Shown: positions 7,277-22,687 of the stretch, piece by piece
Numbering within the stretch: the first letter of the stretch is position 1
Layout: every line of letters begins with the position of its first letter
Virus record (IMG/VR): IMGVR_UViG_3300024507_000282
Span: 1 to 40,860 of that record
Strand: one strand, 5' to 3'
DNA from: a virus
Length of the DNA stretch: 40,860 nucleotides
Position numbers and translations under genes: made by a program
Notes under the pieces: model-generated
Databases searched by the model: none
What the model was told of the DNA's origin: nothing
Seen by the model: the letters and a program-made list of their open reading frames with translations, nothing else

Positions 7277-7522
7277 ATGAAAGTTTACGAAATATTAGAA
7301 AACATTGAAACTGATTTGGATGAAAAAGCATCCAGAAAACTCTGCGTCTCTACTCGTTCAGATGCTGAGTTGGGTGCAAGTAATCTAGCAAGTTGTAAGT
7401 CACAAGGCTTACGTGCCCGCGATGGACAGAAAAGCCACTTAGTAGGCAAGAAGCGTATTACAGTTGGCGGTAAGAAAATCAAAGGTAAAAAATACGGCGG
7501 CCCATTGCCGGACTATAGTTGA
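7277..7522 (+). CDS. Small basic protein with Lys/Gly-rich tail (81 aa)
   Basis: The N-terminal 20 residues form an acidic helix. The middle has S-N-L-A-S-C-K-S-Q-G-L-R-A-R-D-G-Q-K. The last 30 residues are highly basic with repeated K-K, G-G-K-K and G-K-K-Y-G-G. Such a tail suggests binding to nucleic acid or to an acidic protein surface. ATG 7277 lies one base past the previous stop; there is no clear ribosome binding site. A GATAAATA motif just upstream (7261-7268) is too close to serve as a normal late promoter for it. Confidence 0.68.
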   Translation: MKVYEILENIETDLDEKASRKLCVSTRSDAELGASNLASCKSQGLRARDGQKSHLVGKKRITVGGKKIKGKKYGGPLPDYS

Positions 7523-8088
7523 AATGCGAGCACTCAGATATGATTGGCCAACTACTTGTGGCTCCACCAGCTCAGAAGAATGAGTTCTGGGAAGAGTCAG
7601 TTATATTCTTATATGAGCAAACTGCTCAAAGTGTTGTTGGCCTCATCGTAAACAAACCCAGCGAAAGATCCCTAGCAGACCTAGCAGAACATCACGAATT
7701 AGATTACACAGGCGACGAACAAATTTATGTCGGTGGCCCAGTAAATCCTAGTGCGTTGGTTATGCTACACACAGATGATTGGGCTTGTACTAATACAATG
7801 CACATTGGCGGACCTTGGAGAATTAGTTCAGACAGAACGATGCTTAGTCGTATCTGCAAGGGCGACGCTCCCCGCAAATGGAGATTATTCTTAGGTATGA
7901 GTGTTTGGTCACCCGTGCAGTTAGAAGGAGAGATTATGGGCAATCCTCCGTGGGACAAGAAAACGTCCTGGGTCACAGCACCAGCAACAGAATCAATCTT
8001 GTTTGCCAAATCACCCGAAAGAGCTTGGAAGAAAGGCATCGATTTAGCCGCCCAATCGATGGTCTCCAATTACTTTACAATAGAATAA
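7519..8088 (+). CDS. yqgE: YqgE/AlgH (DUF179) family protein
   Basis: The protein has the family's signature order: G-Q-L-L-V-A-P-P near the start, G-L-I-V-N-K-P-S (loop after strand two), V-G-G-P-V near residue 75, then L-G-M-S-V-W-S-P-V-Q-L-E-G-E-I in the C-terminal half. The total of 189 aa is the normal length. The bacterial family is widespread (YqgE, AlgH) with an uncertain role, linked to transcriptional control. The start is TTG 7519, overlapping the upstream stop as TTGA; ATG 7540 is the alternative and would remove seven residues. Carriage by a phage suggests it tunes a host process. Confidence 0.87.
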   Translation: MKCEHSDMIGQLLVAPPAQKNEFWEESVIFLYEQTAQSVVGLIVNKPSERSLADLAEHHELDYTGDEQIYVGGPVNPSALVMLHTDDWACTNTMHIGGPWRISSDRTMLSRICKGDAPRKWRLFLGMSVWSPVQLEGEIMGNPPWDKKTSWVTAPATESILFAKSPERAWKKGIDLAAQSMVSNYFTIE

Positions 8089-8161: not shown

Positions 8162-8674
8162 ATGTCAGATACCCTATTACTGAACGCAGATGCACAACCA
8201 GTGAGCTACTTGCCACTGAGTACACTCTGCTGGCAAGATGCTATCAAGTATATGGTCTTAGAGAAAGGCCGTGTATTGGAATGGCACGACGATTGGGTCG
8301 TACGCTCTGCCCGTTGGGAAACTCGTGTACCTAGCATTATTATGCTATCAGAATACATGAAGCCAAAACATACAGTACGTTTCTCTAAGAGCAACGTGTT
8401 CCTGCGCGATGGCTATACCTGTCAGTATTGTGGTGACCATTTAGAAAAGAAAGAATGTACGCTAGACCACGTGCTACCAGTTAGCCACGGCGGTAAGAGC
8501 ACATTTGAAAACAGCACTACTTCTTGTGGACCTTGTAACGCTGGCAAAGGTGCTAACCATAAGATTAAGCCAAAGCACAAGCCACACAAGCCAGACTTCT
8601 GGGAACTAGTGAACAAACGCAAAGCCTTGGGCTTTCAAGTTCGTTACGAGGCTTGGATGGATTATATTAAATAA
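8162..8674 (+). CDS. HNH endonuclease
   Basis: This stand-alone HNH protein of 170 aa has a zinc-binding C87-x2-C90, the catalytic L-D-H-V (D102, H103), S-H-G-G (H109), E-N-S, and a second zinc pair C122-x2-C125 followed by N-A-G-K-G. The N-terminal 75 residues (L-L-L-N-A-D-A-Q-P, W-Q-D-A-I) are the usual N-terminal part of the bacterial and phage HNH family with this layout. It would nick or cut DNA; it could be a homing-type nuclease or part of host DNA attack. It has its own promoter and is followed four bases later by the YbaN gene. Confidence 0.9.
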   Translation: MSDTLLLNADAQPVSYLPLSTLCWQDAIKYMVLEKGRVLEWHDDWVVRSARWETRVPSIIMLSEYMKPKHTVRFSKSNVFLRDGYTCQYCGDHLEKKECTLDHVLPVSHGGKSTFENSTTSCGPCNAGKGANHKIKPKHKPHKPDFWELVNKRKALGFQVRYEAWMDYIK

Positions 8675-8678
8675 TTCC

Positions 8679-9098
8679 ATGAAAAAACTATTCTGGAATT
8701 GTTTAGGCTTTCTTAGCCTTGGTATGGCCTATATAGGGGTTGTCACACCTGGCATCCCTTATAGTCCTTTTGTAGTGTTTGCGGCTTATTGTTTTAGTAA
8801 GGGCAGTGAGCGTATGCACAAGTGGATCTACAATCACAAACTGTTCGGACCATTCCTTACTAACTGGAACGAAAAACGTGTGTTCCCGCAGAAGATGAAA
8901 TATCTAATGCTGGGCATGATGAGTTTGAGTTTAATACTAATGTATACTGGCGGAGTAAAACCAATTGGAGTTATCAGTACTGCTGTGTTTATGGCCTTTG
9001 TTGCCATTTGGGCTTGGCGTTATCCTTCCTCTGTTGCCGAACATGACAAGCGCATTGAGGAAGGACGCAAAGTAGGTTGGTTTAATAACTCTTTTTAA
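8679..9098 (+). CDS. ybaN: YbaN-like DUF454 inner membrane protein
   Basis: The 139-residue protein has three to four hydrophobic segments (about residues 5-22, 27-40, 68-85 and 90-108) and the family's [20 protein letters not shown] motif after the first segment, plus a basic amphipathic stretch (H-K-L-F-G-P-F) and a charged C-terminus. DUF454/YbaN proteins sit in the bacterial inner membrane; their function is unknown. The last 17 bases overlap the 3' end of the opposite-strand hemA gene. Confidence 0.85.
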
Positions 9099-10284
9099 AG
9101 ACTGCTGTAAGGGCAGTAATCAAATCCTCAATCATACCATCATCGTGTAAAGGACTAGGCGCAAACCTTAATCGTTCTGTGCCTACGTCTACAGTTGGAT
9201 AGTTAATTGGCTGTACATAAATGCCAAACTCATTTAACAGTTCGTCACTCATTGCCTTACAACGTTTAGCATCTCCAACTAACACAGGAACAATATGTGT
9301 AGTTGAACAGTCCATAACTGGAATGTCTGCTTTCTTCAATCTGTGTTTTAGTTTACGAGCTCGCTCTTGATGCTTCTCACGCACTTCATTATGTTCACGT
9401 AGATACTTAACTGCGGCCAGTGCTCCAGCACAGGTAACTGGACTCATACTCGTTGTAAAGATAAAGCCTGCGGCCACGCTACGAATAGCATCAACCACTG
9501 TCTTGTCTGCGGCAATGTATCCTCCCTGCGTACCAAATGCTTTACCAAGTGTACCGTTAACTATGTCAACACGATCCTGTAAGCCCAACTCTTCTAATTT
9601 ACCTGCGCCTTCTGCACCATAAAGGCCAACAGCGTGTACTTCGTCAATGTAGGTAATGGCATGATATCTATCTGCTAGGTCGCAGATTTCCTCAATAAGT
9701 CCTACATCTCCGTCCATACTGTATACACTTTCAAATACAATACAAGGAGTCTTTCCAGACAACTTACAGTTGGCTAATTTGTTTTCTAAGTCAGCCATGT
9801 CATTGTGTTTGAATACTTGTTTAGGTGCGCGACTATGTTGAATACCAACAATAATACTGTTGTGGTTGTTCTCGTCTGATATGAATTCTATATTGTCTAT
9901 GATCTTAGATAATGCTATCAGTGTCCACTCGTTGGCTACATAGGCACTACTGAATAACAAAGCACCTGTCTTATTATGTAGACTGGCTAGTTCACGTTCT
10001 AGGGCAACGTGATAATGGCTAGTGCCTCCAATGTTACGTGTACCGCCCGAGCCTGCACCTGTATGGTCTAGGGCTGTGTGCATAGCATCTAACACTACTT
10101 TGCTTTGACCCATACCCAAATAGTCATTACTGCACCAGTTAACTATCTGTTTGATGTTATATGGGCCGTACCAAAGTGCCTGCGGAAACTTGCCGTTCTC
10201 ACGTAGAATATCGTTGAATACACGATATTTGCCGTTGTCCTTAAGGTCTGTGATTAGTTTTTTGAAAGGTTCTTTGTTTATCAT
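9082..10284 (-). CDS. hemA: 5-aminolevulinate synthase
   Basis: This PLP-dependent alpha-oxoamine synthase condenses glycine and succinyl-CoA to 5-aminolevulinate, the first step of tetrapyrrole synthesis by the C4 route. At 400 aa it has full length. Visible landmarks are C-S-N-D-Y-L-G-M-G (51-59), G-S-G-G-T-R-N (78-84), [10 protein letters not shown] (214-223), T-L-G-K-A-F-G with PLP lysine K248, and the C-terminal N-Y-P-T-V-x-x-G-T-E-R-L-R, which favours ALAS over the sister enzymes KBL and AONS. ATG 10284 is chosen because the 61-residue upstream extension of the open frame is unlike the family and reads into the opposite promoter region. It stands alone on the minus strand and no clear ribosome binding site is present. 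Confidence 0.92.
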
Positions 10285-10301
10285 AGTAATAATATTTAAC
10301 C

Positions 10302-10309
10302 AATAAATA
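10302..10309 (+). promoter_or_regulatory. Possible T4-type late promoter motif
   Basis: AATAAATA lies in the gap between the divergent hemA and UDP-glucose dehydrogenase genes, 52 bases before the latter's ATG. It would let the 21 kb island be transcribed late. By motif only. Confidence 0.4.
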
Positions 10310-10330
10310 TCACACACTGAGTCATAGTGG

Positions 10331-10358
10331 TTGACTTTTAAAACTAGAGCGTTATAAT
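10331..10358 (+). promoter_or_regulatory. Sigma70-type promoter abutting the dehydrogenase start
   Basis: TTGACT (10331-10336), a 16-base spacer and TATAAT (10353-10358) make a strong promoter. Its predicted start point (about 10364-10366) falls on the tandem ATG codons at 10362 and 10365, so the transcript would be leaderless. The -35 box is preceded by GG as at the other two sigma70-like sites. Confidence 0.75.
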
Positions 10359-10361
10359 AGC

Positions 10362-11099
10362 ATGATGATTGGAATAATTGGCTACGGAATGGTGGGCAAG
10401 GCAGTAGAGTTTGGTTTCTCAAACACTGAAGTAATCTACTCAGACCCAGAATATAACACAACAACAATAGAAGATGTTTGTAGGGCTAACCCTTCTGCAA
10501 TCTTTGTCTGTGTTCCTACACCCACGGACGATACAAACTATTCCTTATTGCGCTCTGTGCTAGATACTATACAAAAGAACTACACAGGAATTACAGTAGT
10601 TAAAAGTACTGTACTACCTCAGTACTTAGATGGATATGATGTTGTTTACAATCCAGAGTTTTTAAGTAGAGCAACTGCTAACAATGACTTTGTCAATCCT
10701 CCCATGGTTATCCTAGGAGGACCTATGGATAAAACTCAGAAGTTGGCAGACGTCTACAGATCATATTCTACAGTCAATATGGATCAAGTGGTGTTTACTG
10801 ATATTAAAACAGCCGCTCTGGCCAAATACTGTATGAATAGTTTCTATGCTACCAAAGTTACATTTATGAATCAGATGTATGATGTAGCACAGCAACTAGG
10901 AGTAGAGTGGAGCCAAGTCACTGACATATTAGCAAAGCAACCTTGGATGGGAACACATCACTTTCAAGTGCCCGGACCAGATGGCCAAAGAGGATTCGGT
11001 GGTCCATGCTTGCCCAAAGACACAGAAGCACTAACTAAAGAATTTGAAGTACCTTTGTTAGATACTGTGCTACTATTGAACAAGGTATATAGACAATGA
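10362..11099 (+). CDS. ugd: Short UDP-glucose/GDP-mannose-type dehydrogenase
   Basis: This NAD-dependent sugar-nucleotide dehydrogenase of 245 aa has a Rossmann G7-x-G9-x2-G12, V-C-V-P-T-P near 50, S-T-V near 82, A-K-Y-C-M-N-S-F with K155 and N159, and the catalytic cysteine C216 in [10 protein letters not shown]. It would oxidise a UDP-hexose to the uronate. Usual family members are about 390-450 aa; here the whole C-terminal UDP-binding domain is absent and the gene stops soon after the cysteine motif. The dinucleotide MM start has no ribosome binding site and abuts a promoter. Its stop overlaps the first radical SAM gene as ATGA. Whether the short form is active alone is not known to me. 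Confidence 0.87.
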
Positions 11100-12121
11100 A
11101 AACATTATTAGTTGTCCTATCCGAAAAATGTAATTTAAACTGCTCCTACTGCGGAGTAGACAAGTGGAGTAAAAATCGCATCGACCCTGTGTTGTACTTG
11201 GCAGAGTTTCGTAAGATGCGAGAGCAATATCCAGACGAAACAATTAAGATTGATTTCTTTGGTGGAGAGCCTTTGCTTCAGATAGATTTGATAGAAGAGA
11301 TTTTAGACGGAGTCCGTGACGATGGCAACATCAAATTGTTTATGCCTACTAACGGGCTACTGCTCACAGAAGAAACTGTAGACTTCCTAGTTCAAAATAA
11401 CATAGAAGTTTCTATTAGTTTTGACGGGCTATGGCAGGATCGCAATAGACTACAATTAAACGGCAAAGGAACTAAACAACGTTTCTTTGAAAAGCGTGAA
11501 CTATTTAAAAAACTGCCCGGAGTTAGTTGTCACAGCATGATAACCAAAGGCTGTTATAATCTACTAGAAAATCATCTATGGATTAAAGAACATTTTGGAT
11601 TCAATCCAGAACTTACGCTGGTACGAGATGTAGGTACATGGGATCAGGACAGCGTCGATAAACTTAAAATAGGTATTACCGAGATGTTTGACTGGTACAT
11701 TGCCAATCCAGACCAAGGAATGCCCTATTTTGTGTTATTTTATCTAAGACACTTTTTAGATTATCATTCTAAGGGAGTTACTACAGATAATTGCGGTGCA
11801 GGTACAAATATGTTTATGTTCAGCGAAAACAAAGTTGTACCCTGTACCCGATTTAAAGACAGTCCGGACATGATAGCGGCCATACCACAATATGCCCAAA
11901 TGCCCGTTTGTCAAACCTGCGAAGTTAGAAACTACTGCAAAAAGGGCTGTTTATTTGAACAGATTAAAAACCAAGGTCCTATAGTTGAGCTCTGCGATAT
12001 CTATAAATATACGTACAGAGAAGTCAAGCGCATGACAGCGGCCTTAAGAAACAACGAATTTTTCAAACAAGTTGTTAAAGAAGAAATGGAAAAGGAATAC
12101 GAAGATGGCTACGAGTATTAA
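11096..12121 (+). CDS. Radical SAM/SPASM enzyme 1
   Basis: C12-x3-C16-x2-C19 (C-N-L-N-C-S-Y-C) binds the SAM [4Fe-4S] cluster and F-F-G-G-E-P is the SAM-contact motif. The C-terminal third has the cysteine spacing of a SPASM domain: D-N-C-G-A-G, V-P-C-T-R-F, then C-Q-T-C-E-V-R-N-Y-C-K-K-G-C and a late C. SPASM enzymes typically modify peptides or proteins (sulfatase maturation, thioether and C-C crosslinks in RiPPs). At 341 aa it is within the family range. It is translationally coupled to the dehydrogenase upstream. The substrate is unknown; the nearby Cys-rich tail protein is a candidate by location. Confidence 0.9.
   Translation: MKTLLVVLSEKCNLNCSYCGVDKWSKNRIDPVLYLAEFRKMREQYPDETIKIDFFGGEPLLQIDLIEEILDGVRDDGNIKLFMPTNGLLLTEETVDFLVQNNIEVSISFDGLWQDRNRLQLNGKGTKQRFFEKRELFKKLPGVSCHSMITKGCYNLLENHLWIKEHFGFNPELTLVRDVGTWDQDSVDKLKIGITEMFDWYIANPDQGMPYFVLFYLRHFLDYHSKGVTTDNCGAGTNMFMFSENKVVPCTRFKDSPDMIAAIPQYAQMPVCQTCEVRNYCKKGCLFEQIKNQGPIVELCDIYKYTYREVKRMTAALRNNEFFKQVVKEEMEKEYEDGYEY
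12002..12009 (+). promoter_or_regulatory. Possible internal T4-type late promoter motif
   Basis: A perfect TATAAATA lies inside the 3' end of the first radical SAM gene, about 96 bases before the start of the 76-residue gene. It could be chance, because it encodes an Ile-Tyr-Lys-Tyr stretch, or it could allow late transcription of the following tail-protein genes. Confidence 0.3.
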
Positions 12122-12335
12122 AAGGATGAACAAGGCGTTGTACAATGCGAGCTTCCACTTGTTAGAGGCAAGTAAGCATTTATCTAACGAAGAATTGTTT
12201 CGTGAAGAGGCGGAGTTCTTGGCTAATCTAGCAAAGGATATGGCTAGTATTATCCAACAAGAAGAAGAAAAAGTAACTGAAGATAAAATGCTGTCAGTTC
12301 TAGATGAAATATTAAACATTGAGGATATCAAATGA
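12105..12335 (+). CDS. Small helical acidic protein between two SPASM enzymes (76 aa)
   Basis: ATG 12105 has AGGA eight bases upstream; a longer frame from 12072 would overlap more of the previous gene. The protein looks entirely helical, with basic residues at the start (S-I-K-R-M-N-K) and heptad-like hydrophobic spacing through to the end. The C-terminus is acidic. No cysteine or glycine-rich core is present, so it does not look like a RiPP precursor core. It overlaps the next radical SAM start as ATGA. A role as partner or substrate carrier for the flanking SPASM enzymes is inferred from position only. Confidence 0.72.
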   Translation: MATSIKRMNKALYNASFHLLEASKHLSNEELFREEAEFLANLAKDMASIIQQEEEKVTEDKMLSVLDEILNIEDIK

Positions 12336-13507
12336 AAGTATCAAAAGGATCGTTTACCTTAGAGATTACAACTACAGCACTATGTAACTTAGGTTGCTCG
12401 TACTGTTTTGAAGGTGTGAAAACAGACACACGTAGACTCGATGACAAAGTAGAAATTTTAAAAGTACGCATCAAAGAGTTTTATGACAGCGCATGGTTCA
12501 AAGAAAACTATGACGAATTAATGATCGATTTCTGGGGAGGCGAACCTACACTTAATGGCAACTTAATTGTTGATATTATGAAAGAGTTCCAACACATCGA
12601 AAATATTGGATTTCATATCTACACAAACGGATACAACCGTAAACGTTTAGAAAATGTATTAGATAATGTCGACCTAAAAAAGATTAATATCCAGTTTAGT
12701 TATGACGGTAAGAATATCAACGACAAGTTCCGATTAACGCATAGTGGTAAACCTACATCGGCACAGGTTATTGAGAACTTTGAATATTTCGCACGTAAAG
12801 GTGCTAACTTGTCATTGAAAGCCACAGTGCCATTAAAGAGCATGACAGGTATGCTTGCGGCATGGCGTGACTACAAACAACTCTACGAGCGTTTTAAAGA
12901 TATTGGGCCTAACTGCCGTGTTGAGTATGCTCCGACTATTGACTATGTAACAGACCTACCAGTAGACGAACTACCGGGAATGGTAGCAGACTTCCGTAAA
13001 GAAATGTTGATGATTGCTAAGGAAGAAATCGAGTTTGTTAAAAAGTATGGGCATCATTTATGCACTTGGTTTAATGGCGGCGACGCAAAGAGTCACTGTC
13101 AGAGCGGCGCTTCGATGCATGCCATTAACGTAGACGGTAACAGTTATGCTTGCCACGGATCACTATATAGTCCAAATAAAGAATTAATGGGTTCTGGTGG
13201 TAATATTGATGATGCTGATTTTATTGATAAAGTTATTAAAATGGCTACAACTTATCAGCCAAAAGCACGTGAAGTCAGCGATATCTGCAAGGGCTGTGTA
13301 GCAACAACCTGTATGATTTGCCCTGTTTCTAGTTTAGATAATAGTAAGCAGGAAGACTACTTCGATCGCTGGACTGATCGTTGGGTAAATAACATGTGCG
13401 GTTTCTTTAAAACATTTGGAGAAATCGATAGAACAGTTCAGGCTTATCTAGATAGAGATTTAGCAGTTAAACCTGAGCTTGCAGAAAAGGAAAAGGAAAC
13501 TCAATAA
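12332..13507 (+). CDS. Radical SAM/SPASM enzyme 2
   Basis: C18-x3-C22-x2-C25 (C-N-L-G-C-S-Y-C) and D-F-W-G-G-E-P mark the radical SAM core. The C-terminus carries a SPASM-like set: S-H-C-Q-S-G followed by V-D-G-N-S-Y-A-C-H-G, then C-K-G-C, T-T-C-M-I-C-P and a final M-C-G-F-F. At 391 aa it is longer than enzyme 1 and not a close copy of it. It is coupled to the 76-residue gene by an ATGA overlap and is followed within two bases by the Cys-rich S74 tail protein. The enzyme class is clear; the substrate is not known. Confidence 0.9.
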   Translation: MKVSKGSFTLEITTTALCNLGCSYCFEGVKTDTRRLDDKVEILKVRIKEFYDSAWFKENYDELMIDFWGGEPTLNGNLIVDIMKEFQHIENIGFHIYTNGYNRKRLENVLDNVDLKKINIQFSYDGKNINDKFRLTHSGKPTSAQVIENFEYFARKGANLSLKATVPLKSMTGMLAAWRDYKQLYERFKDIGPNCRVEYAPTIDYVTDLPVDELPGMVADFRKEMLMIAKEEIEFVKKYGHHLCTWFNGGDAKSHCQSGASMHAINVDGNSYACHGSLYSPNKELMGSGGNIDDADFIDKVIKMATTYQPKAREVSDICKGCVATTCMICPVSSLDNSKQEDYFDRWTDRWVNNMCGFFKTFGEIDRTVQAYLDRDLAVKPELAEKEKETQ

Positions 13508-13508
13508 A

Positions 13509-14297
13509 ATGGCATGTAGCGGAACCTTTTGTAATCAAAACAGTAGTGGAACAACGACCTGTTTTAACCATCGTGGTGCGTGTTCAACAAACCGCCCACT
13601 ATCTCCAAGTGCAGAATTTGCAATAACCTCGGGTCGTATTACAGCGGCAGACATTGAAGACTTGCGTAGTAAAATTGACGCTGAACTACAAAGATATCAA
13701 TTGCACTTGACCAACAGTGGCACTATTAATCATTTTGGTGTTGTTTCAAGACTTGAAACTAGTGCATACGGCACTAGTACCTTAATTTCCGCTTCACATA
13801 TTAATAATATGGAAACTATGGTTCAGGGAATTCTTAACGTTAATGAACCAGTTGGATCTAACTATGCAGTATATACTAATCCTGCAGATGCTACAGGTGG
13901 TAATAACGTTTATAGTGCTGGATCAATTGCAACAACGACTCACTGGATTACTTTACGTGACAAATATAATGTTATGCGTCAGGACTGTATTTGTAACTCA
14001 GACTGTACGTGTAATGCTGTATGTAACTGCCACAATGACTGCGGCTGTAACTACAGTGATGAAAGACTAAAACAAAACATTAAATTCATTGGCACTAGAG
14101 AAGGTATTAACATCTACTCTTACAATTACACCTGGGACCCAGAAACAAAGTATATCGGTGTAATGGCACAGGAATTATTAGGTACAGAATACTCAGATGC
14201 AATCGAGTTGGGCGAAGATGGATTCTTTAAAGTCCATTATGACAGATTGCCAAATAAAGGAGAACTTTGGAGCGAACCAACAACTTTAAAGGATTAA
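13509..14297 (+). CDS. Tail-fibre-tip protein with C-x-C ladder and S74 chaperone domain
   Basis: Three parts are visible in 262 aa. Residues 1-30 hold four cysteines (3, 8, 18, 25) among Ser/Thr/Asn. Residues 40-157 are a low-complexity Ser/Thr/Asn fibre-like region. Residues 160-180 contain eight cysteines at 160, 162, 166, 168, 172, 174, 178 and 180, a perfect six-residue repeat C-x-C-x-x-x. Immediately after comes the S74 intramolecular chaperone: S183-D-E-R-L-K-Q-N-I, then Y-I-G-V-M-A-Q-E-L and a Y-D-R-L. S74 domains trimerise phage fibres and are then cut off by self-cleavage at the start of the domain, usually before the Ser. If so here, the cysteine ladder becomes the tip of the mature fibre. 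Confidence 0.9.
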   Translation: MACSGTFCNQNSSGTTTCFNHRGACSTNRPLSPSAEFAITSGRITAADIEDLRSKIDAELQRYQLHLTNSGTINHFGVVSRLETSAYGTSTLISASHINNMETMVQGILNVNEPVGSNYAVYTNPADATGGNNVYSAGSIATTTHWITLRDKYNVMRQDCICNSDCTCNAVCNCHNDCGCNYSDERLKQNIKFIGTREGINIYSYNYTWDPETKYIGVMAQELLGTEYSDAIELGEDGFFKVHYDRLPNKGELWSEPTTLKD

Positions 14298-14298
14298 G

Positions 14299-14916
14299 AT
14301 GAGTAGCATCATATATGATTTAGCCATAGTTCAAGATCGTGGCTCACACTGGTTTGTAACAAACGTAACTCAAAACACATTAGACAATCAAGCAGACAAA
14401 GACGAAAAAATTCTTCGTCTTTCCTACATGAGCCATCAACTTATTAAACAAGCACTGATGGAAGGCAAGAGAGTACATATCCATAAAACTCTATTAACAG
14501 GAGAAGTGTTGCCTGGAGAGTTTGATATCATTGATTTAAAAGAAACTGATCCTGTCCAAGAATCAAGAGATGCGGCAATGGTGAAAGTCCGTATGCTTGT
14601 AACCCCAGAGTTATCTAAAGCATCTGGTTTGTCCATGTATGGATTTATTGTTTTAAACAATGACCTGGCCAGCGCAGGCTACTTTATTACAAATGAGAAT
14701 AGAGAAGAAAAATATCTTGAGATTCTCGAAACAGGTGATGAAAAACTAATTGCTAAATTAGAAGATTATCTTAACTACAAGGATGAGATCGAAGCCGTTG
14801 CACAGTTAGAACGTAGATTCAGTGCATTTAAAAATGAACTTCGAACAGCATCGACAGTCGAAGAAATCAAATCAATAGAAGAGCGATTTTTAGAACGATT
14901 CTACGCTAACTTCTAA
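14299..14916 (+). CDS. Unknown protein with C-terminal coiled coil (205 aa)
   Basis: AAAGGA lies five bases before ATG 14299. The first ~130 residues are an alpha/beta domain with no recognisable motif (I-I-Y-D-L-A-I-V-Q-D-R-G-S-H-W-F near the start). The last ~60 residues have heptad-like helices (A-V-A-Q-L-E-R-R-F-S-A-F, then I-K-S-I-E-E-R-F-L-E-R-F). It directly follows the S74 tail protein and could be a fibre chaperone or attachment protein. That is inferred from position alone. Confidence 0.75.
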   Translation: MSSIIYDLAIVQDRGSHWFVTNVTQNTLDNQADKDEKILRLSYMSHQLIKQALMEGKRVHIHKTLLTGEVLPGEFDIIDLKETDPVQESRDAAMVKVRMLVTPELSKASGLSMYGFIVLNNDLASAGYFITNENREEKYLEILETGDEKLIAKLEDYLNYKDEIEAVAQLERRFSAFKNELRTASTVEEIKSIEERFLERFYANF

Positions 14917-14918
14917 TA

Positions 14919-15707
14919 ATGAACTATGGTGTTGTATACAAGTTTAAACCACACAATAAGATCAACGGAACATTATTTTACTGTTTCGAATACTTTAAAT
15001 TTCTAAGAAAGTATGTTGATGCAAAGTTTTATATTGTTGGTATAGACACAAAGGATCTTGAATTAGTTCTAGATATCCTTACGACAAAATACAACACCAC
15101 AGTTGATAACATCGTTCCTGTAACACTAGTAGAGTTATACAAACTCAATCTTGATCGTACACTTATCCTAGATGTAAACACCTTTTACGATTGTAAAGAA
15201 TTCTTAACTAACGAAATACATTGTTTCAGCAATGACACGCACGAGATGTTTCGTTATAAGAATAATCGCACAGTAACTTACTACGGACTGTATCCATATC
15301 AACGCTACGATGTAGAGTGTATCCTTAAATTAAACTTTGAGATATTCAAACCCTGTGCTAGCCAGCCAGGTGTATTTGTTAGTTGCTTGGATCCAAAGTA
15401 CATTCGATACGAGTACGAACGATTAAAGGCGCAGTTCAATCGTCCTATCCTATTAAAAAAACAACACACCGGCATTGGAGATTTGTTTGATCAAATTGAT
15501 GCTGTCCACTATATTCATGTTGTAAGAGATACTAACAACAGAATAATCCCAGAAGGGTTCTTCTATAATAAAGCAGTAACTATTGAAGAACCATACAATC
15601 TTGACATAGACTCAATACAATTACGCTATAATGATATAGTTGCTAACGGGCTAGGCAATTATACTCTTACAGAAAACTGTCCAATGGTGCAGGCATGTCT
15701 AAGATAA
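14919..15707 (+). CDS. Glycosyltransferase-like protein A (GT-B-like, 262 aa)
   Basis: The protein shares its layout with the next gene: an opening G-T-L-F-Y-C-F-E-Y-F-K-F-L-R after the first strand, a middle I-L-D-V-N strand, a segment R-Y-D-V-E-C-I-L-K-L-N-F-E-I-F-K-P and a C-terminal D-L-F-D-Q-I-D, then I-P-E-G-F-F-Y. These positions match N-terminal and nucleotide-sugar-binding elements of GT-B glycosyltransferases only in outline. No confident family signature is visible. It overlaps the next gene by 13 bases. Confidence 0.5.
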   Translation: MNYGVVYKFKPHNKINGTLFYCFEYFKFLRKYVDAKFYIVGIDTKDLELVLDILTTKYNTTVDNIVPVTLVELYKLNLDRTLILDVNTFYDCKEFLTNEIHCFSNDTHEMFRYKNNRTVTYYGLYPYQRYDVECILKLNFEIFKPCASQPGVFVSCLDPKYIRYEYERLKAQFNRPILLKKQHTGIGDLFDQIDAVHYIHVVRDTNNRIIPEGFFYNKAVTIEEPYNLDIDSIQLRYNDIVANGLGNYTLTENCPMVQACLR

Positions 15708-16591
15708 CACAGTTAGATAACTCCTATGACCTTTGGCTCAGTTATACTTGGAGCAACAACAATCACGGCATCTGTGGACACACCTACGAAGTTATAGATT
15801 ACTATCATATACTGCGTAACGATTTCAAAGTAGGCATATTGTTATGCGAAGACATTAACTGGGCAAGGTTTGAATCTAGTATTAGAAGCAAATACAATTT
15901 TACAGATGCTGAGATAGAAGACATGCAGTCTAACACAGTATTTGCCAACAGGCCCACTCTAGTTAAAGGACGTAACATATTATTCACAGACGGTGGCGTT
16001 GTTAATATGCAGTCTGTAACATTATTGTTTGATAATATCTTTTACTTTGCCTGCGGCAATAAAGAAATCAAATACAATGACAAAGGCAATGTGTGGATCT
16101 TACAAGACAATAGAGTATATGAACCTGTAAAGAAAAACGGTATCAACTACAAAAAGAAAATACTATTTGATAAGTTAAAACCTTTAGGCGAAAGCAAGGA
16201 TGCTGTGTTAGTATACGCTACTAAGAACTGTAGACAGTTGGATACCTACGAGGAGTTATTACAGTACGGAGATAACATCCTTGCTATAACTAACAAAGAA
16301 AATATGCCCAAACCTATGCCAGGGTTCACATTTGTCATTCCTCCTGTGGATAACTTATTCGAACAGTTTAGAACTTACGTGTATACTCCTGTTAAACGTA
16401 AATGGGATTGTAGTCCACGTTTCATAGCAGAGTGTAAATATTACGGCAAATCTGTAGTGTTTCATAACATTGATTATTGGGACGAAGATTTAGGATTATA
16501 CTGGCGTAACTGGGATATAGAAAACGACTTCGATAGTCTGTGTCTACGACCCAGTGACGATATAGTAAACATACTTAAAGGCATTATATGA
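15695..16591 (+). CDS. Glycosyltransferase-like protein B (298 aa), paralog of 14919-15707
   Basis: An early G-I-C-G-H-T-Y-E-V-I-D-Y motif resembles the glycine/histidine loop of GT-B enzymes. The C-terminal half has N-L-F-E-Q-F, then S-P-R-F-I-A-E-C-K-Y-Y-G-K, a typical GT-B sugar-nucleotide site shape (S-P-R-x-I-x-E-x). The gene before it has the same elements in the same order but weaker. Location in a sugar-enzyme island supports a glycosyltransferase role. Donor and acceptor unknown. The stop overlaps the next start as ATGA. Confidence 0.6.
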   Translation: MSKITQLDNSYDLWLSYTWSNNNHGICGHTYEVIDYYHILRNDFKVGILLCEDINWARFESSIRSKYNFTDAEIEDMQSNTVFANRPTLVKGRNILFTDGGVVNMQSVTLLFDNIFYFACGNKEIKYNDKGNVWILQDNRVYEPVKKNGINYKKKILFDKLKPLGESKDAVLVYATKNCRQLDTYEELLQYGDNILAITNKENMPKPMPGFTFVIPPVDNLFEQFRTYVYTPVKRKWDCSPRFIAECKYYGKSVVFHNIDYWDEDLGLYWRNWDIENDFDSLCLRPSDDIVNILKGII

Positions 16592-17451
16592 TTGTAGTTG
16601 AAATTTTAGAATACTGTAATTTTAAATGCTATTTCTGTAAAGCAAAGGACATCACTGAGCCTAAGTATATGCCGTTGGATTTATTCAAACGCATAATACT
16701 AGAAGCAAAGGAAATGGGCATAACTGAAATTGATCTAATCCCTGCCAAAGGGGAGCCTTTCCTACATCCAGACATCTATGAGATGCTGGCGTTTCTCAAT
16801 GAGCATATGAAGTATACTATTGTGTTTACTAATGTCACTGCAATTAATGTGCGTAAGTTAGCAGAAGTTCCAATGAACAACATTAAGTTGTGTGTTAGTT
16901 ACTATGGCGACACTCCTGCACGTTTCAAAGAACTAACAGCAATGGACAAGAACTTGTTTGATATTGTACATAAACGTTTACAAGAATTAACTGACGCAGG
17001 CATTCAATACAAACTTGAACGCAGAGACTATGGCTACGAGTTTAACTACACAGGCACAAAGGTAACAGAAGAGTTTGATCCGAAGCTCAAGTGTCACTTC
17101 CACAGCATGCCTAAGATTATGGCTAATGGCGATGTAGTATTTTGTAAGTTCGTAAAGGACAACACACCTCCTAACGACAAGGTTGCGTTTGCCAACTTAC
17201 ATAATACATCATTAAAGGATGCACTAACAGATCCTATTAGATACAAGTTCTTCGATAGCCAAAGCATTTGTGTAAAACATTGTAGTAGTTTTAGCAGAAC
17301 TTGTTACAAAGAAAGTATTAGTAGTTTTAAATTAATGGCCGCAAGTAAGAAGGCTTACTTTGCTAACCCCGATCCAGTAGATCAACAGTACGAAGAGATA
17401 GAACGTGAGACTATACAACGAGCTCAGCAACAAGTTACAGATAGACCGTGA
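16588..17451 (+). CDS. Radical SAM enzyme 3
   Basis: C10-x3-C14-x2-C17 (C-N-F-K-C-Y-F-C) starts right at the N-terminus, and the SAM motif is I-P-A-K-G-E-P. A C-terminal region with K-C-H-F-H-S-M-P-K-I-M-A-N-G-D-V-V-F-C, then S-I-C-V-K-H-C-S-S-F-S-R-T-C is SPASM/twitch-like and probably binds a second cluster. Length 287 aa. It is coupled to the glycosyltransferase-like gene by an ATGA overlap, and its own 3' end overlaps the next radical SAM gene by 47 bases. Substrate unknown. Confidence 0.88.
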   Translation: MIVVEILEYCNFKCYFCKAKDITEPKYMPLDLFKRIILEAKEMGITEIDLIPAKGEPFLHPDIYEMLAFLNEHMKYTIVFTNVTAINVRKLAEVPMNNIKLCVSYYGDTPARFKELTAMDKNLFDIVHKRLQELTDAGIQYKLERRDYGYEFNYTGTKVTEEFDPKLKCHFHSMPKIMANGDVVFCKFVKDNTPPNDKVAFANLHNTSLKDALTDPIRYKFFDSQSICVKHCSSFSRTCYKESISSFKLMAASKKAYFANPDPVDQQYEEIERETIQRAQQQVTDRP

Positions 17452-18430
17452 CGAACCTATTTGCGAACGTGCTAAGTTAGATACTGGTACGCATTGCAAT
17501 TATCGTTGCGAGTTCTGTTATTACAAAACACAGTTAAATGAAGTAACTGAGTTTGAAGTCATACGACAACGTATTGACTATCTCGTTGCCTGTGGCATTA
17601 AAGAAGTTGACTTGAGTGGCGGTGAGTCTAGCATACACAAACAATGGTTTGACATTCTTGACTATTGTAAAAGCAAAGGCTTAAAGATTAGTTGTCTAAG
17701 TAATGGCTACAAGTTTGCTGACAAGGAGTTCTTGCGTAAGAGTAAAGAACACGGCTTAGATGAAATACTGTTCAGTGTACACGGTTACGATAAAGAAAGC
17801 CACAACATACTAGTTGGGCATCGCAAGGGCTTTGAAAACATTATCCAAGCAATACACAATGCACATGAGCAAGGTGTTCTTGTGCGTGTTAATTGTACAG
17901 TAACACATAAGAACTATAAGAACTTGCCAACTAAGTTTGTTCAATTAGTTAACGAACTAAAGCCGTTTGAAGTTAACTTCTTAACTCTTAACTACTGGGA
18001 CGATGCAGGCATACAGGAAACTATCGACTACGGAGAAGTAACTCCTTACGTACATCAAGCAATAGATTTACTAAAGGATAGTGTTCCTAAACTTAACGTT
18101 CGTTACACGCCGTATTGCTTTATGAAAGGATACGAGCAGTACGTATGCAACTACTACCAACACATATATGACATTTATGATTGGAACATTGCTGTGTACA
18201 ATGGTGACATAGACCCAGACGTGTACCGAGCAGACCCACACAAGGCAATGTATGATGCGGCCGCATTTAAACGTAACCGTACCTATTACAAAACAAAGGA
18301 CTGCTTAAACTGCAAGCACTACTATATCTGCGATGGTGTAGAGAAACAAATCAAAGACATTAAACTACGACCCGAAGAAGGTCCTAAGATTGATCAAGTA
18401 AATTTTTACCGCAAAGGATACTACAAATGA
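17405..18430 (+). CDS. Radical SAM enzyme 4
   Basis: The start is GTG 17405. C31-x3-C35-x2-C38 (C-N-Y-R-C-E-F-C) follows a 30-residue leader, and D-L-S-G-G-E-S is the SAM motif. The first 200 residues are a classical partial TIM barrel (S-C-L-S-N-G-Y, I-L-F-S-V-H-G-Y). Extra cysteines near the end (C-L-N-C-K-H-Y-Y-I-C) may hold an auxiliary cluster. Length 341 aa. It overlaps the previous gene by 47 bases and the next one as ATGA. Function unknown; the Rossmann-type SDR that follows may act on its product. Confidence 0.88.
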   Translation: MRLYNELSNKLQIDRDEPICERAKLDTGTHCNYRCEFCYYKTQLNEVTEFEVIRQRIDYLVACGIKEVDLSGGESSIHKQWFDILDYCKSKGLKISCLSNGYKFADKEFLRKSKEHGLDEILFSVHGYDKESHNILVGHRKGFENIIQAIHNAHEQGVLVRVNCTVTHKNYKNLPTKFVQLVNELKPFEVNFLTLNYWDDAGIQETIDYGEVTPYVHQAIDLLKDSVPKLNVRYTPYCFMKGYEQYVCNYYQHIYDIYDWNIAVYNGDIDPDVYRADPHKAMYDAAAFKRNRTYYKTKDCLNCKHYYICDGVEKQIKDIKLRPEEGPKIDQVNFYRKGYYK

Positions 18431-19059
18431 ATATTATAGTCGTAGGCGGTGGAACCTTTGGTCGATTTGGTAATGACTTTGTAAGACAAGCAAAGGCAGA
18501 TGGACATGTTGTCCGTGTGCTTTCTCACAGAACTAACGATGACACAGATGCTACGCTAACTTTCTTAACAGCAGAAGATGCAGTAACTAAGTTCAATAGC
18601 ATTACACAAGACTTAGATACAATTGATATCTTGTTGTACAACTCAACATATAAAGGCTATCCAGACGATCCTAGTACATTTACTAGCAAAGGTGTAATAA
18701 AAGAAAAGTTATATGTACATGGATTTTATGTACAGGCAATCATACCACACGCACTATCTATCGAAGCATTAAAGAAAATGACAACACAGTCTAAAATTGT
18801 GTTTATGACCACAGATGTAATCTACGATAGAGAACGCACACTTGGACTACACAAGTTGGGCTACTACGGTGGCAAGGCATATCAACATCAATTGATGTTA
18901 GCACTAGCAGAACACAACGACAAAGATGTAACTGTGAGTTCAGTAAGTCCCGTGTTTGACTATGAGGATAGAAAAAACTATCAAAGGCAGTTTAATACAG
19001 TCTATGAACATATCTTTGGCACTACACAGAATGGAAAAATATATGACTGCTGGGAATAA
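18427..19059 (+). CDS. Short-chain dehydrogenase/reductase-like protein (210 aa)
   Basis: The protein has an N-terminal V-V-G-G-G-T-F-G-R-F-G glycine-rich loop, a D-I-L-L-Y-N-S-T strand in the position of the usual N-N-A-G, M-T-T-D-V-I after the fifth strand, and Y146-x3-K150 as the catalytic pair. It should bind NAD(P)(H) and oxidise or reduce an alcohol/carbonyl, probably a sugar. It lies between radical SAM genes 4 and 5, overlapping both, which suggests the substrate is shared. Confidence 0.8.
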   Translation: MNIIVVGGGTFGRFGNDFVRQAKADGHVVRVLSHRTNDDTDATLTFLTAEDAVTKFNSITQDLDTIDILLYNSTYKGYPDDPSTFTSKGVIKEKLYVHGFYVQAIIPHALSIEALKKMTTQSKIVFMTTDVIYDRERTLGLHKLGYYGGKAYQHQLMLALAEHNDKDVTVSSVSPVFDYEDRKNYQRQFNTVYEHIFGTTQNGKIYDCWE

Positions 19060-19711
19060 CTTACACGACAACTATGAGTTCTTCCAAGGCGGCTTGGATG
19101 GCGCAAACTCCTATACTCTTTATGTTACATATAAATGTAATTGGTTCTGTAACTACTGCTCAGAAGATACACACAATCGTCCAGATGTAACCATAGAAGA
19201 CTTACAGCGTAAGGTACAGGCCATTCCTCCTAACAGCGATGTAGCCATTACAGGAGGAGAACCGGGTACACTTAATAAAGAAGTAATGCTATGGTTGCTA
19301 ACAGAATTAAAAAGCAAAGGTTGTTTCATTAATGTAAACACTAACGGAACATTCTTTAAGAAACATAAAAACGTTTGCCATATCCCAGATAGTTTTCTAT
19401 ATCACTGTAGCGAACACTTAGATGATGAAGAGATATGGATTCCAGAACATGTTGATCGTTCTAAGATAGACTTTCAACTTGTGATAACAGATGATACTGC
19501 GGACAGATTAGAATACTATATCAACAAGTATCCAGACATAAAGTTTTTGATATTTGGTGCAGACAATGTAATTGGAAAAGGATTAAGTAGAGCAAATGGA
19601 TTTAAGGTTTATCAAAAGTTTAAAGATAAGATTGATCCAAACAGTTACATACATTTGATTACAACCTGTAGAGAAGTAAATGATATACGGAAACTAAAAG
19701 CATTGAGATGA
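19043..19711 (+). CDS. Radical SAM enzyme 5 (short, triplet member 1)
   Basis: ATG 19043 is chosen because GGA lies seven bases upstream; the open frame extends further but would run deep into the SDR gene. C32-x3-C36-x2-C39 (C-N-W-F-C-N-Y-C) is followed by E-D-T-H-N-R-P, and A-I-T-G-G-E-P-G is the SAM motif. The 222 aa are just a minimal barrel with no auxiliary cluster domain. Shares C-N-W-x-C-x-Y-C, D-T-H-N-R-P, N-T-N-G and Y-H-C-x-E with the next two genes. The stop overlaps the next ATG. Confidence 0.88.
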   Translation: MTAGNNLHDNYEFFQGGLDGANSYTLYVTYKCNWFCNYCSEDTHNRPDVTIEDLQRKVQAIPPNSDVAITGGEPGTLNKEVMLWLLTELKSKGCFINVNTNGTFFKKHKNVCHIPDSFLYHCSEHLDDEEIWIPEHVDRSKIDFQLVITDDTADRLEYYINKYPDIKFLIFGADNVIGKGLSRANGFKVYQKFKDKIDPNSYIHLITTCREVNDIRKLKALR

Positions 19712-20286
19712 AAGAGATAGAACTTCCTTTAACTTATAAGTGTAATTGGCACTGTGACTATTGTGTAGCAGACACACACAATCGTCCAGAGTTACCTTAC
19801 GAGGAAGTTCTGCGTAGAGTAGAGGCTATTGAGCCAGGTACAGAAGTTACCTTTGGTGGAGGTGAGCCAGGACTACTAAAGCGTGATCAACTAGAACATA
19901 TTATTAAAATACTCAAAGACAAAGGTTGTGTGATTGATTTACTAACTAATGGACTGTTCTTTAAACGTCATATGCCTTTGGTACATGAGTTTGGTAAGAT
20001 ACACTATCACTGTGTTGAGTACTTACCAGACGACATAGAGTTTCCAGACTTACAATTAAATCATGTATCCTATGGATTGGTAGTTACAAACACAAACTTC
20101 CTAGACGGAAGCATACATGAAATGATTAGACGTTACCCGCACATTAAGTTTTTATTGTTGCCCGATGTGCGTAGTCAAAAGAAGATTAACTTAAACTTAA
20201 TGATGGACTTCTTTAATGAACACGGCGATAAGGTACATCCAGGATCATTGCAGGAATTCATCACAGTTGTGGCAAGGTGGCACTAA
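19708..20286 (+). CDS. Radical SAM enzyme 6 (short, triplet member 2)
   Basis: C12-x3-C16-x2-C19 (C-N-W-H-C-D-Y-C) and D-T-H-N-R-P match the flanking two genes. The SAM motif is F-G-G-G-E-P-G. At 192 aa it is one of the shortest radical SAM proteins here, with a Y-H-C-V-E motif near residue 110 and no second cluster domain. It is coupled to its neighbours by an ATGA overlap before it and a TAATG overlap after it. Such short barrels resemble activase or QueE-sized enzymes, but no specific family fits. Confidence 0.87.
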   Translation: MKEIELPLTYKCNWHCDYCVADTHNRPELPYEEVLRRVEAIEPGTEVTFGGGEPGLLKRDQLEHIIKILKDKGCVIDLLTNGLFFKRHMPLVHEFGKIHYHCVEYLPDDIEFPDLQLNHVSYGLVVTNTNFLDGSIHEMIRRYPHIKFLLLPDVRSQKKINLNLMMDFFNEHGDKVHPGSLQEFITVVARWH

Positions 20287-20900
20287 TGGCAATTCACGCA
20301 CAAGAACGAGAAATTGAATTAGTCGTTACATGGGTATGTAACTGGCACTGCGACTATTGCTGTGTTGATACACACAATCGTCCTAAACTTACTATGGATG
20401 AAGTAAAGGCCAAGTTAGACAAAGTTATTCCAGGATACAACGTAACACTCAGTGGCGGCGAAGTTGGCAGTATGAAACGTGCAGACATTGAATATATCCT
20501 AGACGAACTAGAAAAGAAAGGTTGCCGCCCTAGCATTAATACTAATGGATTGTTTATCAAACGCTATCGTGATCTATTGCCTCGCTTTGATACTATCCTG
20601 TATCACTGTAGCGAAAACTTAGACTTAGACGAAGAGATCATTATAGATCCAGAATTAAATTTACAGTATCTATTAATAGTTACTGACACTAACTTTGACA
20701 AGTTAGAAGCATTTATTAACAAGTATTCAGACATAGAGTTTCATTTAGTTGCGGCTACTATGCCCGAAGGTATCAATGGTGTAACATTATCAAACAAACT
20801 CAAACACGCTATGCTGACTAGATTCCACAAGCGTATGACAGCAGAATCTAAAGTGCGAGTATTTAAGGAGAAGGACTTTGACTCAATCATCTATCTATAA
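20286..20900 (+). CDS. Radical SAM enzyme 7 (short, triplet member 3)
   Basis: ATG 20286 overlaps the previous stop as TAATG, with AAGG eight bases upstream. C18-x3-C22-x2-C25 (C-N-W-H-C-D-Y-C) is followed by another Cys (C26) and D-T-H-N-R-P. The SAM motif is changed to L-S-G-G-E-V-G, losing the usual Pro. 204 aa. The three tandem genes 19043-20900 are related by duplication but have diverged strongly outside the motifs, so they probably act on different substrates or form a hetero-complex. Confidence 0.87.
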   Translation: MAIHAQEREIELVVTWVCNWHCDYCCVDTHNRPKLTMDEVKAKLDKVIPGYNVTLSGGEVGSMKRADIEYILDELEKKGCRPSINTNGLFIKRYRDLLPRFDTILYHCSENLDLDEEIIIDPELNLQYLLIVTDTNFDKLEAFINKYSDIEFHLVAATMPEGINGVTLSNKLKHAMLTRFHKRMTAESKVRVFKEKDFDSIIYL

Positions 20901-21786
20901 AGTCCAACCTAACGCAGACATTGAACGTATTGAGTTAGAGTTAACTTCTGCTTGTAATCTCAAATGTCCGTTGTGTGTTCGAGCAATAACCAACGTGCCT
21001 GATGAAAACAATTATAGAAGTCTAGAAGAAATAATTGCACAGTTAGACAGTTATCCAAACTTAAAGTTTATTACTATTGCTGGCCCAATCTCAGAGCCAA
21101 CAACTTATCCTAAACTATTGGAGTTGATTGCTTATATTAACAAACGTGATATTGAGATATCTCTGTACATCAACGGAGATACTAGAAATGATCTGTATTA
21201 TAAAAAACTAGGCACATTGTTTAGAAACAAGACAGGACATGTATACTTTACCATCTGCGGTAGCACACAAGAGTTACACGGAACATACAGAGTTAATTCA
21301 AAGTTAGATAGAGTGTTATCTAGATTAGAAATAGTAGATAAGTTCAGCGGTGGGAAGGGTGTATTAACTTGGATTGTGTTTAACTATAACGAGCAGGACT
21401 TTATAGAAAACTATCCAAAGTTCAGTGAACGATACAATACAGAATATTTCCATACTTTGCCAATTACAGAGCATCACCAGTTAAAGAGTAAAATACACTT
21501 ACCAGATCGTTTAAAGGCATTGTACGAACGAGAAATAGATAGAAAGGATTTTAACAATATAGTATGCCCAGCCAACGCTAGTAACTATATACAAATAAGA
21601 CATGACGGCAAGATAGATCCTTGTTCGTTATATAGGCAGTTTGGGGAAGAACATTGTTGGGAATGTAGTAAGAAGAATCTTACAACACTAAGAACAAATA
21701 AGATATTCCAATGTGCAGAACCAGAAACAGAAACATCATCAAGGAGTGTGTTGTTATATTATGAACGTCACTATGAAAAAGAGTGA
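20878..21786 (+). CDS. Radical SAM enzyme 8 (S-E-P-T group, member 1)
   Basis: The start is TTG 20878, supported by AAGGAG seven bases upstream. C26-x3-C30-x2-C33 (C-N-L-K-C-P-L-C) is followed by a variant SAM motif G-P-I-S-E-P-T-T-Y. F-T-I-C-G-S-T-Q-E-L-H-G-T-Y-R is shared with the next two genes. The C-terminus has V-C-P-A-N-A-S, D-P-C-S-L-Y and H-C-W-E-C, a SPASM-like auxiliary cysteine set. 302 aa. Function unknown; the S-E-P-T form instead of G-G-E-P and the C-G-S-T-Q-E segment are the group's hallmarks. Confidence 0.88.
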   Translation: MTQSSIYKVQPNADIERIELELTSACNLKCPLCVRAITNVPDENNYRSLEEIIAQLDSYPNLKFITIAGPISEPTTYPKLLELIAYINKRDIEISLYINGDTRNDLYYKKLGTLFRNKTGHVYFTICGSTQELHGTYRVNSKLDRVLSRLEIVDKFSGGKGVLTWIVFNYNEQDFIENYPKFSERYNTEYFHTLPITEHHQLKSKIHLPDRLKALYEREIDRKDFNNIVCPANASNYIQIRHDGKIDPCSLYRQFGEEHCWECSKKNLTTLRTNKIFQCAEPETETSSRSVLLYYERHYEKE

Positions 21787-22687
21787 AGTAGAAGAGATGG
21801 AGATGGACTTGACAGGAGTCTGTAATCTCTCATGCCCACTGTGTACTCGTAACTATCAACATGCGAATCACTTGGTTGAAAAGAATGTACGAGACATAGA
21901 CACTATTATTAAACAGTTAGATCAGTACACAGGACTTAAACGTTTCTTTGTTGCAGGTGTAGTCAGTGAGCCGACTATGTACAAAGACTTCATTAAGTTT
22001 ATTGAATACCTAAACAGTCGTGATATCTATTACGAAATCTTTACCAACGGCAATACTAGAGATACAGCATGGTGGGAACAGTTGGGTAGCATTGTACCTG
22101 AGAAATGTATGTGTGCATTTACTGTCTGCGGAAGCACACAGGAAATACATGCCAAGTATCGTGTGGGCAGTGACCTACAACAGATCCTAGACAATGCCGC
22201 GGCGTTCCGTAAGAACAGACGTAAGAATGATTGGATACAACATATCCGTTTTGAGTACAATGCAGAGGATAGAGAAAGCCCAGAGATGAAAGCAATCTTT
22301 GATCAATTCAGTAATGTAATGAAAGTTGAAACAGAAGGTGTGCGTAGAGTAAACGTCTACAACAAAGAAGTAGAACTAGGCATTCGTCCTGTTAAGACCC
22401 GGGAGCAAACTATTAAGTTGTTGTTTAAGAATCGTCCTGAGCCCAACGACGGTAAACAATACAACATACAATGCCGTAGTCTACAACAAAAGAAAATATA
22501 CATTAACCAATGGGGACAGGTCAGTGCCTGTTATACTCATGCTGAGAATGAGCAAGACTACTTTCCAGCAGACAAAGAAGACATGGACTACAGTGATATC
22601 CTATCCTTTAAGTTTCCAGATTGTTTCCTATGTGAGAAGCGTACACGTACCTTTATTGATAAAATGGGATTGGACTTTGTATGTTAA
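21761..22687 (+). CDS. Radical SAM enzyme 9 (S-E-P-T group, member 2)
   Basis: C21-x3-C25-x2-C28 (C-N-L-S-C-P-L-C), G-V-V-S-E-P-T-M-Y and V-C-G-S-T-Q-E-I-H-A-K-Y-R place it with its two neighbours. The C-terminal half has C-R-S-L-Q-Q-K-K, V-S-A-C-Y-T and D-C-F-L-C-E-K, again an auxiliary-cluster pattern. ATG 21761 or 21773 are both possible starts; neither has a well-spaced ribosome binding site, and translation may be coupled to the upstream gene, which it overlaps. About 308 aa. Confidence 0.87.
   Translation: MNVTMKKSEVEEMEMDLTGVCNLSCPLCTRNYQHANHLVEKNVRDIDTIIKQLDQYTGLKRFFVAGVVSEPTMYKDFIKFIEYLNSRDIYYEIFTNGNTRDTAWWEQLGSIVPEKCMCAFTVCGSTQEIHAKYRVGSDLQQILDNAAAFRKNRRKNDWIQHIRFEYNAEDRESPEMKAIFDQFSNVMKVETEGVRRVNVYNKEVELGIRPVKTREQTIKLLFKNRPEPNDGKQYNIQCRSLQQKKIYINQWGQVSACYTHAENEQDYFPADKEDMDYSDILSFKFPDCFLCEKRTRTFIDKMGLDFVC

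Follow-up and report, generated by a model that had tools for sequence, protein, structure and literature searches.

Genes for 5-aminolevulinate synthase (ALAS) have been described in many marine and freshwater phages, where the enzyme is known as viral AlaS (vAlaS; Wegner et al. 2024, PMC11480375). Such genes occur alone or together with genes for heme oxygenase and bilin reductase (PMC11480375). The vAlaS of the freshwater phage CB_2 forms 5-ALA and rescues an ALA-auxotrophic E. coli, and the bilin reductase of the same phage was shown to be PcyA (PMC11480375). Loss of the R. capsulatus residue His342 has been argued to free vAlaS from heme feedback, and a Rhodobacter-like bin was the sole bacterial exception with a viral-type AlaS (PMC11480375). 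The ALAS gene analyzed here lies in the first 40,860 bases (hereafter the window) of a 104,860-base virus record, the remaining pieces of which are labelled L082-L085 (Table 1). It is an additional case of the kind known since 2024 (PMC11480375). The original prediction had expected a phage ALAS to be notable in itself, an expectation overtaken by the many phage ALAS genes and the one active enzyme already published (PMC11480375). The value added by the present locus is a host signal, a link with DUF454 genes and a probable symbiont takeover.

Table 1. Features of the phage record (positions are those of the window unless a record or piece is named)
Feature	Position	Strand	Basis
AlgH-like (DUF179) protein	7519..8088	+	PF02622
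HNH endonuclease	8162..8674	+	PF01844
DUF454/YbaN-like small membrane protein	8679..9098	+	PF04304, E 1e-30
5-aminolevulinate synthase (ALAS; viral AlaS), 400 aa	9082..10284	-	TIGR01821, active-site positions, trees
Intergenic region, 77 bp, between divergent ALAS and UDP-glucose dehydrogenase-like genes	10285..10361	.	
UDP-glucose/GDP-mannose dehydrogenase-like gene, borders ALAS	10362..11099	+	PF00984, PF03721
Heme oxygenase (HemO)	record 68573-69127		PF01126
Bilin reductase, PcyX-like	record 69120-69800		PF05996
Circularly permuted tmRNA	L084:7671-8113 (record 88531-88973)		betaproteobacterial Rfam model

Heme and bilin genes in the same record

At a distance of about 58 kb from the ALAS gene, the record also encodes a heme oxygenase together with a bilin reductase. 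The ALAS gene had been described as sitting alone, which holds only locally given these two distant genes and a DUF454 gene overlapping the ALAS 3' end. The bilin reductase scores 237 bits against PcyX (5owg) and at most 47 bits against PcyA. The roles of Glu76, His88 and Asp105 in PcyA are well established. The phage protein has Asp at the position of Glu76 and retains the residues aligned with His88 and Asp105. Because of these residues and the PcyX-like alignment, phycoerythrobilin is the predicted product. The closest named phage bilin reductase is that of Pelagibacter phage Mosig (50% identity). Among the records of 45 relatives, many of which are fragments, HemO was found in nine and bilin reductase in eight.

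We consider it highly probable (roughly 0.88) that the viral AlaS feeds one pathway with the phage HemO and the PcyX-like reductase. The phage ALAS would make 5-ALA in the infected cell and thereby bypass the regulated entry step of the host. The 5-ALA would go to heme, HemO would convert heme to biliverdin and iron, and the PcyX-like reductase is predicted to turn biliverdin into phycoerythrobilin. Presumably, ALAS is expressed during infection and benefits the phage. The proposal of an auxiliary metabolic gene is supported insofar as the gene is phage-encoded and the enzyme, judged from its sequence, probably functional.

Additional cofactor and stress genes are encoded by the phage. Record positions 59525-60533 and 65834-68576 (L082:18665-19673 and L083:4974-7716) encompass IscA-like, IscU and IscA-like genes as well as genes for a full-length DnaK (621 aa), then HSP20 and ClpS, the last of these standing directly ahead of the HemO and bilin reductase genes. 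Together they form a block of stress and cofactor functions.

Host of the phage

The phage tmRNA matches the betaproteobacterial Rfam model with 129 bits (cut-off 84), the best score among overlapping models of the clan. Rfam tmRNA models serve for subtyping (PMC11915505). Confidence in the host is limited by the fact that phages may retain the tmRNA of a former host (PMC9004378). The phage DnaK is nearest, at 73-74% identity, to proteobacterial genomes other than alphaproteobacterial ones, followed by 72% for a Neisseriaceae genome and about 67% or less for genomes known as Alphaproteobacteria. A full-length glutamyl-tRNA reductase (GluTR), indicative of the C5 route, is encoded by all 20 of the top DnaK-match genomes. 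These signals run against the alphaproteobacterial host of the original prediction and make a betaproteobacterial host using the C5 route the more probable option. The host is probably non-photosynthetic. A search of 34 bacteria with the beta_tmRNA model gave no match at cut-off, hence the host stays at class level. Because the virus record is partial and has no completeness estimate, neither the host nor the total gene content of the phage is certain.

An alphaproteobacterial host, in which vAlaS would supplement the host's own ALAS, is conceivable yet on the unlikely side. ALAS is the alphaproteobacterial route, the vAlaS phage CB_2 was proposed to infect Methylocystis and pelagiphages have related heme genes (PMC11480375). 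The affinity of the bilin reductase to that of phage Mosig points in the same direction. The beta-type permuted tmRNA argues against such a host without being decisive, as it could stem from a former host, and the DnaK similarities (up to 74% with other Proteobacteria) weigh against it as well. A methanotroph host as for CB_2 was considered and rejected, the sole PmoC-sized candidate ORF scanned being a D-alanyl-D-alanine carboxypeptidase.

If the host indeed relies on the C5 route, ALAS might mainly spare glutamyl-tRNA for translation rather than raise heme levels, as proposed for non-alphaproteobacterial hosts (Wegner et al., PMC11480375). The phage encodes a tRNA-Glu, and GluTR is found in all bacteria with the nearest DnaK. 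The phage HemO and bilin reductase nevertheless indicate a demand for heme and bilins beyond tRNA sparing, making this role improbable as the main one. The shared pathway from 5-ALA to bilins is the preferred explanation. Overall, the record encodes about 25 tRNAs and the permuted tmRNA. A GOLLD RNA (RF02032, 207 bits) is located in the tRNA array (L085:2240-2703; record 103100-103563) with a tRNA-Lys gene inside it (L085 2303-2376). The presence of tRNAs in the GOLLD linker is already known (PMC12286853).

Identity and integrity of the ALAS gene

The ALAS reading frame runs on the minus strand from an ATG at 10284 to a stop ending at 9082 and spans 400 codons without internal stops. The encoded protein begins with MINKEPFK and ends with FKKSY. 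The ATG is preferred over a longer TTG frame because relatives keep the same start (MINKDPF, MIDKTPF). The protein exceeds the cut-off of the ALAS model NCBIfam TIGR01821 by a wide margin (571.3 bits against 338.6). Models of the sister families KBL, AONS and serine palmitoyltransferase match far more weakly, each below its own cut-off (KBL 323 against 460, AONS 315 against 426). The top PDB matches are the C. crescentus-type ALAS 7x98 (444 bits) and the R. capsulatus ALAS 2bwn (430 bits), compared with at most 213 bits for KBL structures. In the alignment with R. capsulatus ALAS, R21, N54, T83, N85, H142, E185, S189, D214, V216, H217, T245, K248, T365 and R374 are identical. The PLP lysine K248 even keeps its residue number in the phage protein. 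These 14 checked active-site positions are unchanged across 80 viral relatives. The gene was predicted to be complete and intact with K248 in place, and both the model score and the active site bear this out. The phage ALAS is probably functional and would form 5-ALA from glycine and succinyl-CoA.

Relatives of the ALAS protein are encoded by 527 IMG/VR stretches identified with the first query. The nearest relatives are 79-84% identical and all come from viral contigs. A search of annotated phage records for ALAS returned only KBL/AONS-like matches of at most 36% identity, several of which are evidently host contamination. In a maximum-likelihood tree, the phage ALAS and all 80 viral sequences form one clade (support 100/100), with 29 alphaproteobacterial ALAS outside of it (100/100). 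Placement with KBL or AONS had been raised as grounds for doubt, and the sequence instead groups with ALAS. Among 50 close pairs of viral ALAS genes, the median dN/dS is 0.051 (range 0.019-0.077), showing that the gene is maintained by purifying selection. This selection lends indirect support to a use of the gene during infection. A different alpha-oxoamine synthase, such as KBL, AONS, serine palmitoyltransferase or an autoinducer synthase, is extremely improbable, as these families are homologous and have the PLP motif in common, yet ALAS is the sole model above its cut-off, ALAS structures match best with KBL next at half the score, and the tree places the protein among phage sequences of the ALAS family.

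The location of the gene on a phage contig, part of the earlier proposal, is corroborated in two ways. Phage genes (rIIA, NrdA, NrdB, an exonuclease and virion proteins) are found along the T4-like record, and a contig from another metagenome (L037) has the same gene order AlgH-HNH-DUF454-ALAS-UGDH at 67-83% identity, covering both ALAS flanks. Another contig (L027) repeats the UGDH-ALAS border only. The UGDH-like neighbor is 68% identical in L027 and 67% in L037. A bacterial hemA stretch joined to the phage contig through chimeric assembly or host contamination is hardly credible, since related ALAS genes do appear in bacterial bins but on contigs that themselves resemble phage, and the chimera is refuted by the independent contig L037.

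Viral-type ALAS in bacterial genomes

A scan of bacterial genomes for ALAS relatives yielded nine loci. Contigs L086 and L088-L090 contain matches to proteins of the present phage in addition to phage-type ORFs. The same is true for ALAS contigs L151-L155 from MAGs of Neomarinimicrobiota, Flavobacteriales and Rhodobacteraceae. The ALAS of Water_Bin34 is identical to the ALAS of an 81-kb IMG/VR contig. Because of the phage-matching genes and the Water_Bin34 identity, such bacterial copies look like phage contigs, and those in MAGs were most likely binned by mistake. A single Rhodobacteraceae bin contains three viral-type ALAS genes and a more distant one. Misbinned phage contigs of this kind may explain the published Rhodobacter-like exception, although it is unproven that the bin is the same.

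Neisseriaceae PsAf is a symbiont of the louse Polyplax serrata (PMC9376444). Its genome has an ALAS belonging to the phage clade, located on a contig of the chromosome (L087; L149-L150, G047 C31), the flanks of which were read by inspection as cellular genes for an ABC exporter, MutY, DapF and formaldehyde dehydrogenase. Of 83 Neisseriaceae genomes, that of PsAf alone contains ALAS. GluTR, present in 79 of the 83, was not found in the PsAf genome, which is an incomplete draft, and neither was GSA aminomutase above cut-off in the same draft. HemB is present. The PsAf ALAS nests among freshwater-type phage ALAS (support 98/87), and no bootstrap tree united the viral sequences to the exclusion of PsAf. 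The AU test for nesting gave p = 0.0625, making the direction of transfer likely and unproven. The PsAf gene probably represents a takeover of a phage gene by a bacterium, a point not found in the main text on vAlaS (PMC11480375). If true, PsAf would provide one of the rare examples in which a cellular core pathway has been replaced by a metabolic gene from a phage.

DUF454 and other neighbors of the ALAS gene

The DUF454 gene is arranged tail-to-tail with ALAS and overlaps it by 17 bp. Within the sequence stretches analyzed, 72 of 141 distinct ALAS loci have a DUF454 match, always downstream of ALAS and never upstream (72 and 0 of 72). The distance is within 1 kb in 40 of the 72 loci and within 150 bp in 24, and 23 of these 24 close genes share the strand of ALAS. 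The 72 loci are related by descent and do not represent 72 independent events. A working link between DUF454 and ALAS is suggested by the occurrence of two different arrangements in two clades. Among six plasmid-borne DUF454 copies, hemW was found beside one and unrelated genes beside the others, and a literature search on DUF454 and heme returned nothing useful. As a conserved ALAS neighbor, DUF454 is a point not found in the main text on vAlaS (PMC11480375). The recurrent association opens a first experimental approach to this widespread membrane protein. We tentatively suggest, at slightly less than even odds, that phage ALAS and DUF454/YbaN form a module and that PsAf lost the C5 route, which is typical of Neisseriaceae, and uses a freshwater-phage ALAS to make 5-ALA.

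Other neighbors recur too, with the HNH endonuclease matched in 71 and the AlgH-like protein in 43 of 80 viral-AlaS loci. The short region between ALAS and the UGDH-like gene presumably holds the promoters of both divergent genes.

The stretch of about 14 kb beyond the UGDH-like gene (window 11096-25115) is unusual for a phage in containing 11 or more radical SAM ORFs that pass the PF04055 cut-off. Several of these are short tandem paralogues (18956-20900 and 20878-23592). A link of ALAS to cobalamin enzymes nearby, as initially suggested, is weak: a single radical SAM ORF (23589-25115) matches a B12-binding radical SAM model with 51 bits (cut-off 360). Two radical SAM ORFs (11096-13507) precede a gene (window 13479-14297) whose Cys-rich product (CICNSDCTCNAVCNCHNDCGCN) includes a Peptidase_S74-like chaperone domain. 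The best NCBIfam match of the two ORFs is the PapB ranthipeptide maturase, below cut-off. The Cys-rich protein could possibly be a radical-SAM-modified, RiPP-like phage tail protein.

Comparison with known systems

The present phage shares several features with the vAlaS phages typified by CB_2. ALAS is found on aquatic phage contigs, forms a clade separate from bacterial ALAS and keeps the PLP lysine. HemO and bilin reductase are present in the genome and do not adjoin ALAS, as in the arrangement termed a broken cassette. Its C-terminal region likewise lacks a Cys at the position of R. capsulatus Cys400. In the present enzyme, residue 342 is Arg, with no Cys beyond it. The absence of His342 is not distinctive because only one of 29 sampled alphaproteobacterial ALAS has this residue. 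As an argument for escape from heme feedback, the loss of His342 is hence weak by itself.

The comparison with CB_2 was made through its published description, as a CB_2-type ALAS match was absent from the phage collection searched. Unlike CB_2, proposed to infect Methylocystis, the present phage carries betaproteobacterial host signals. The bilin reductase is PcyX-like with Asp in place of PcyA Glu76, whereas CB_2 encodes PcyA. The pairing of ALAS with a DUF454 gene is an additional difference, as DUF454/YbaN is absent from the main text on vAlaS (PMC11480375). A phage with betaproteobacterial signals and a whole ALA-heme-bilin gene set joins a kind known only since 2024. The case bears on why phages of hosts possibly using the other route carry a one-enzyme ALA synthase.

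Pelagibacter phage Mosig resembles the present phage in being a T4-like myophage with HemO followed by a PcyX-type reductase, the gene ends overlapping. Mosig differs in having no ALAS match and instead carries a ferrochelatase gene nearby. With alphaproteobacterial ALAS (2bwn, 7x98), the phage enzyme has the fold family and catalytic residues in common, at about 54-59% identity to the alphaproteobacterial sequences sampled. It is set apart from these by its separate clade (100/100) and by about 20 positions with residues that are fixed in viral ALAS but rare or absent among the alphaproteobacterial sequences, including Trp120 and Ala114, which are Ala and Gly, respectively, in all 29 alphaproteobacterial sequences.
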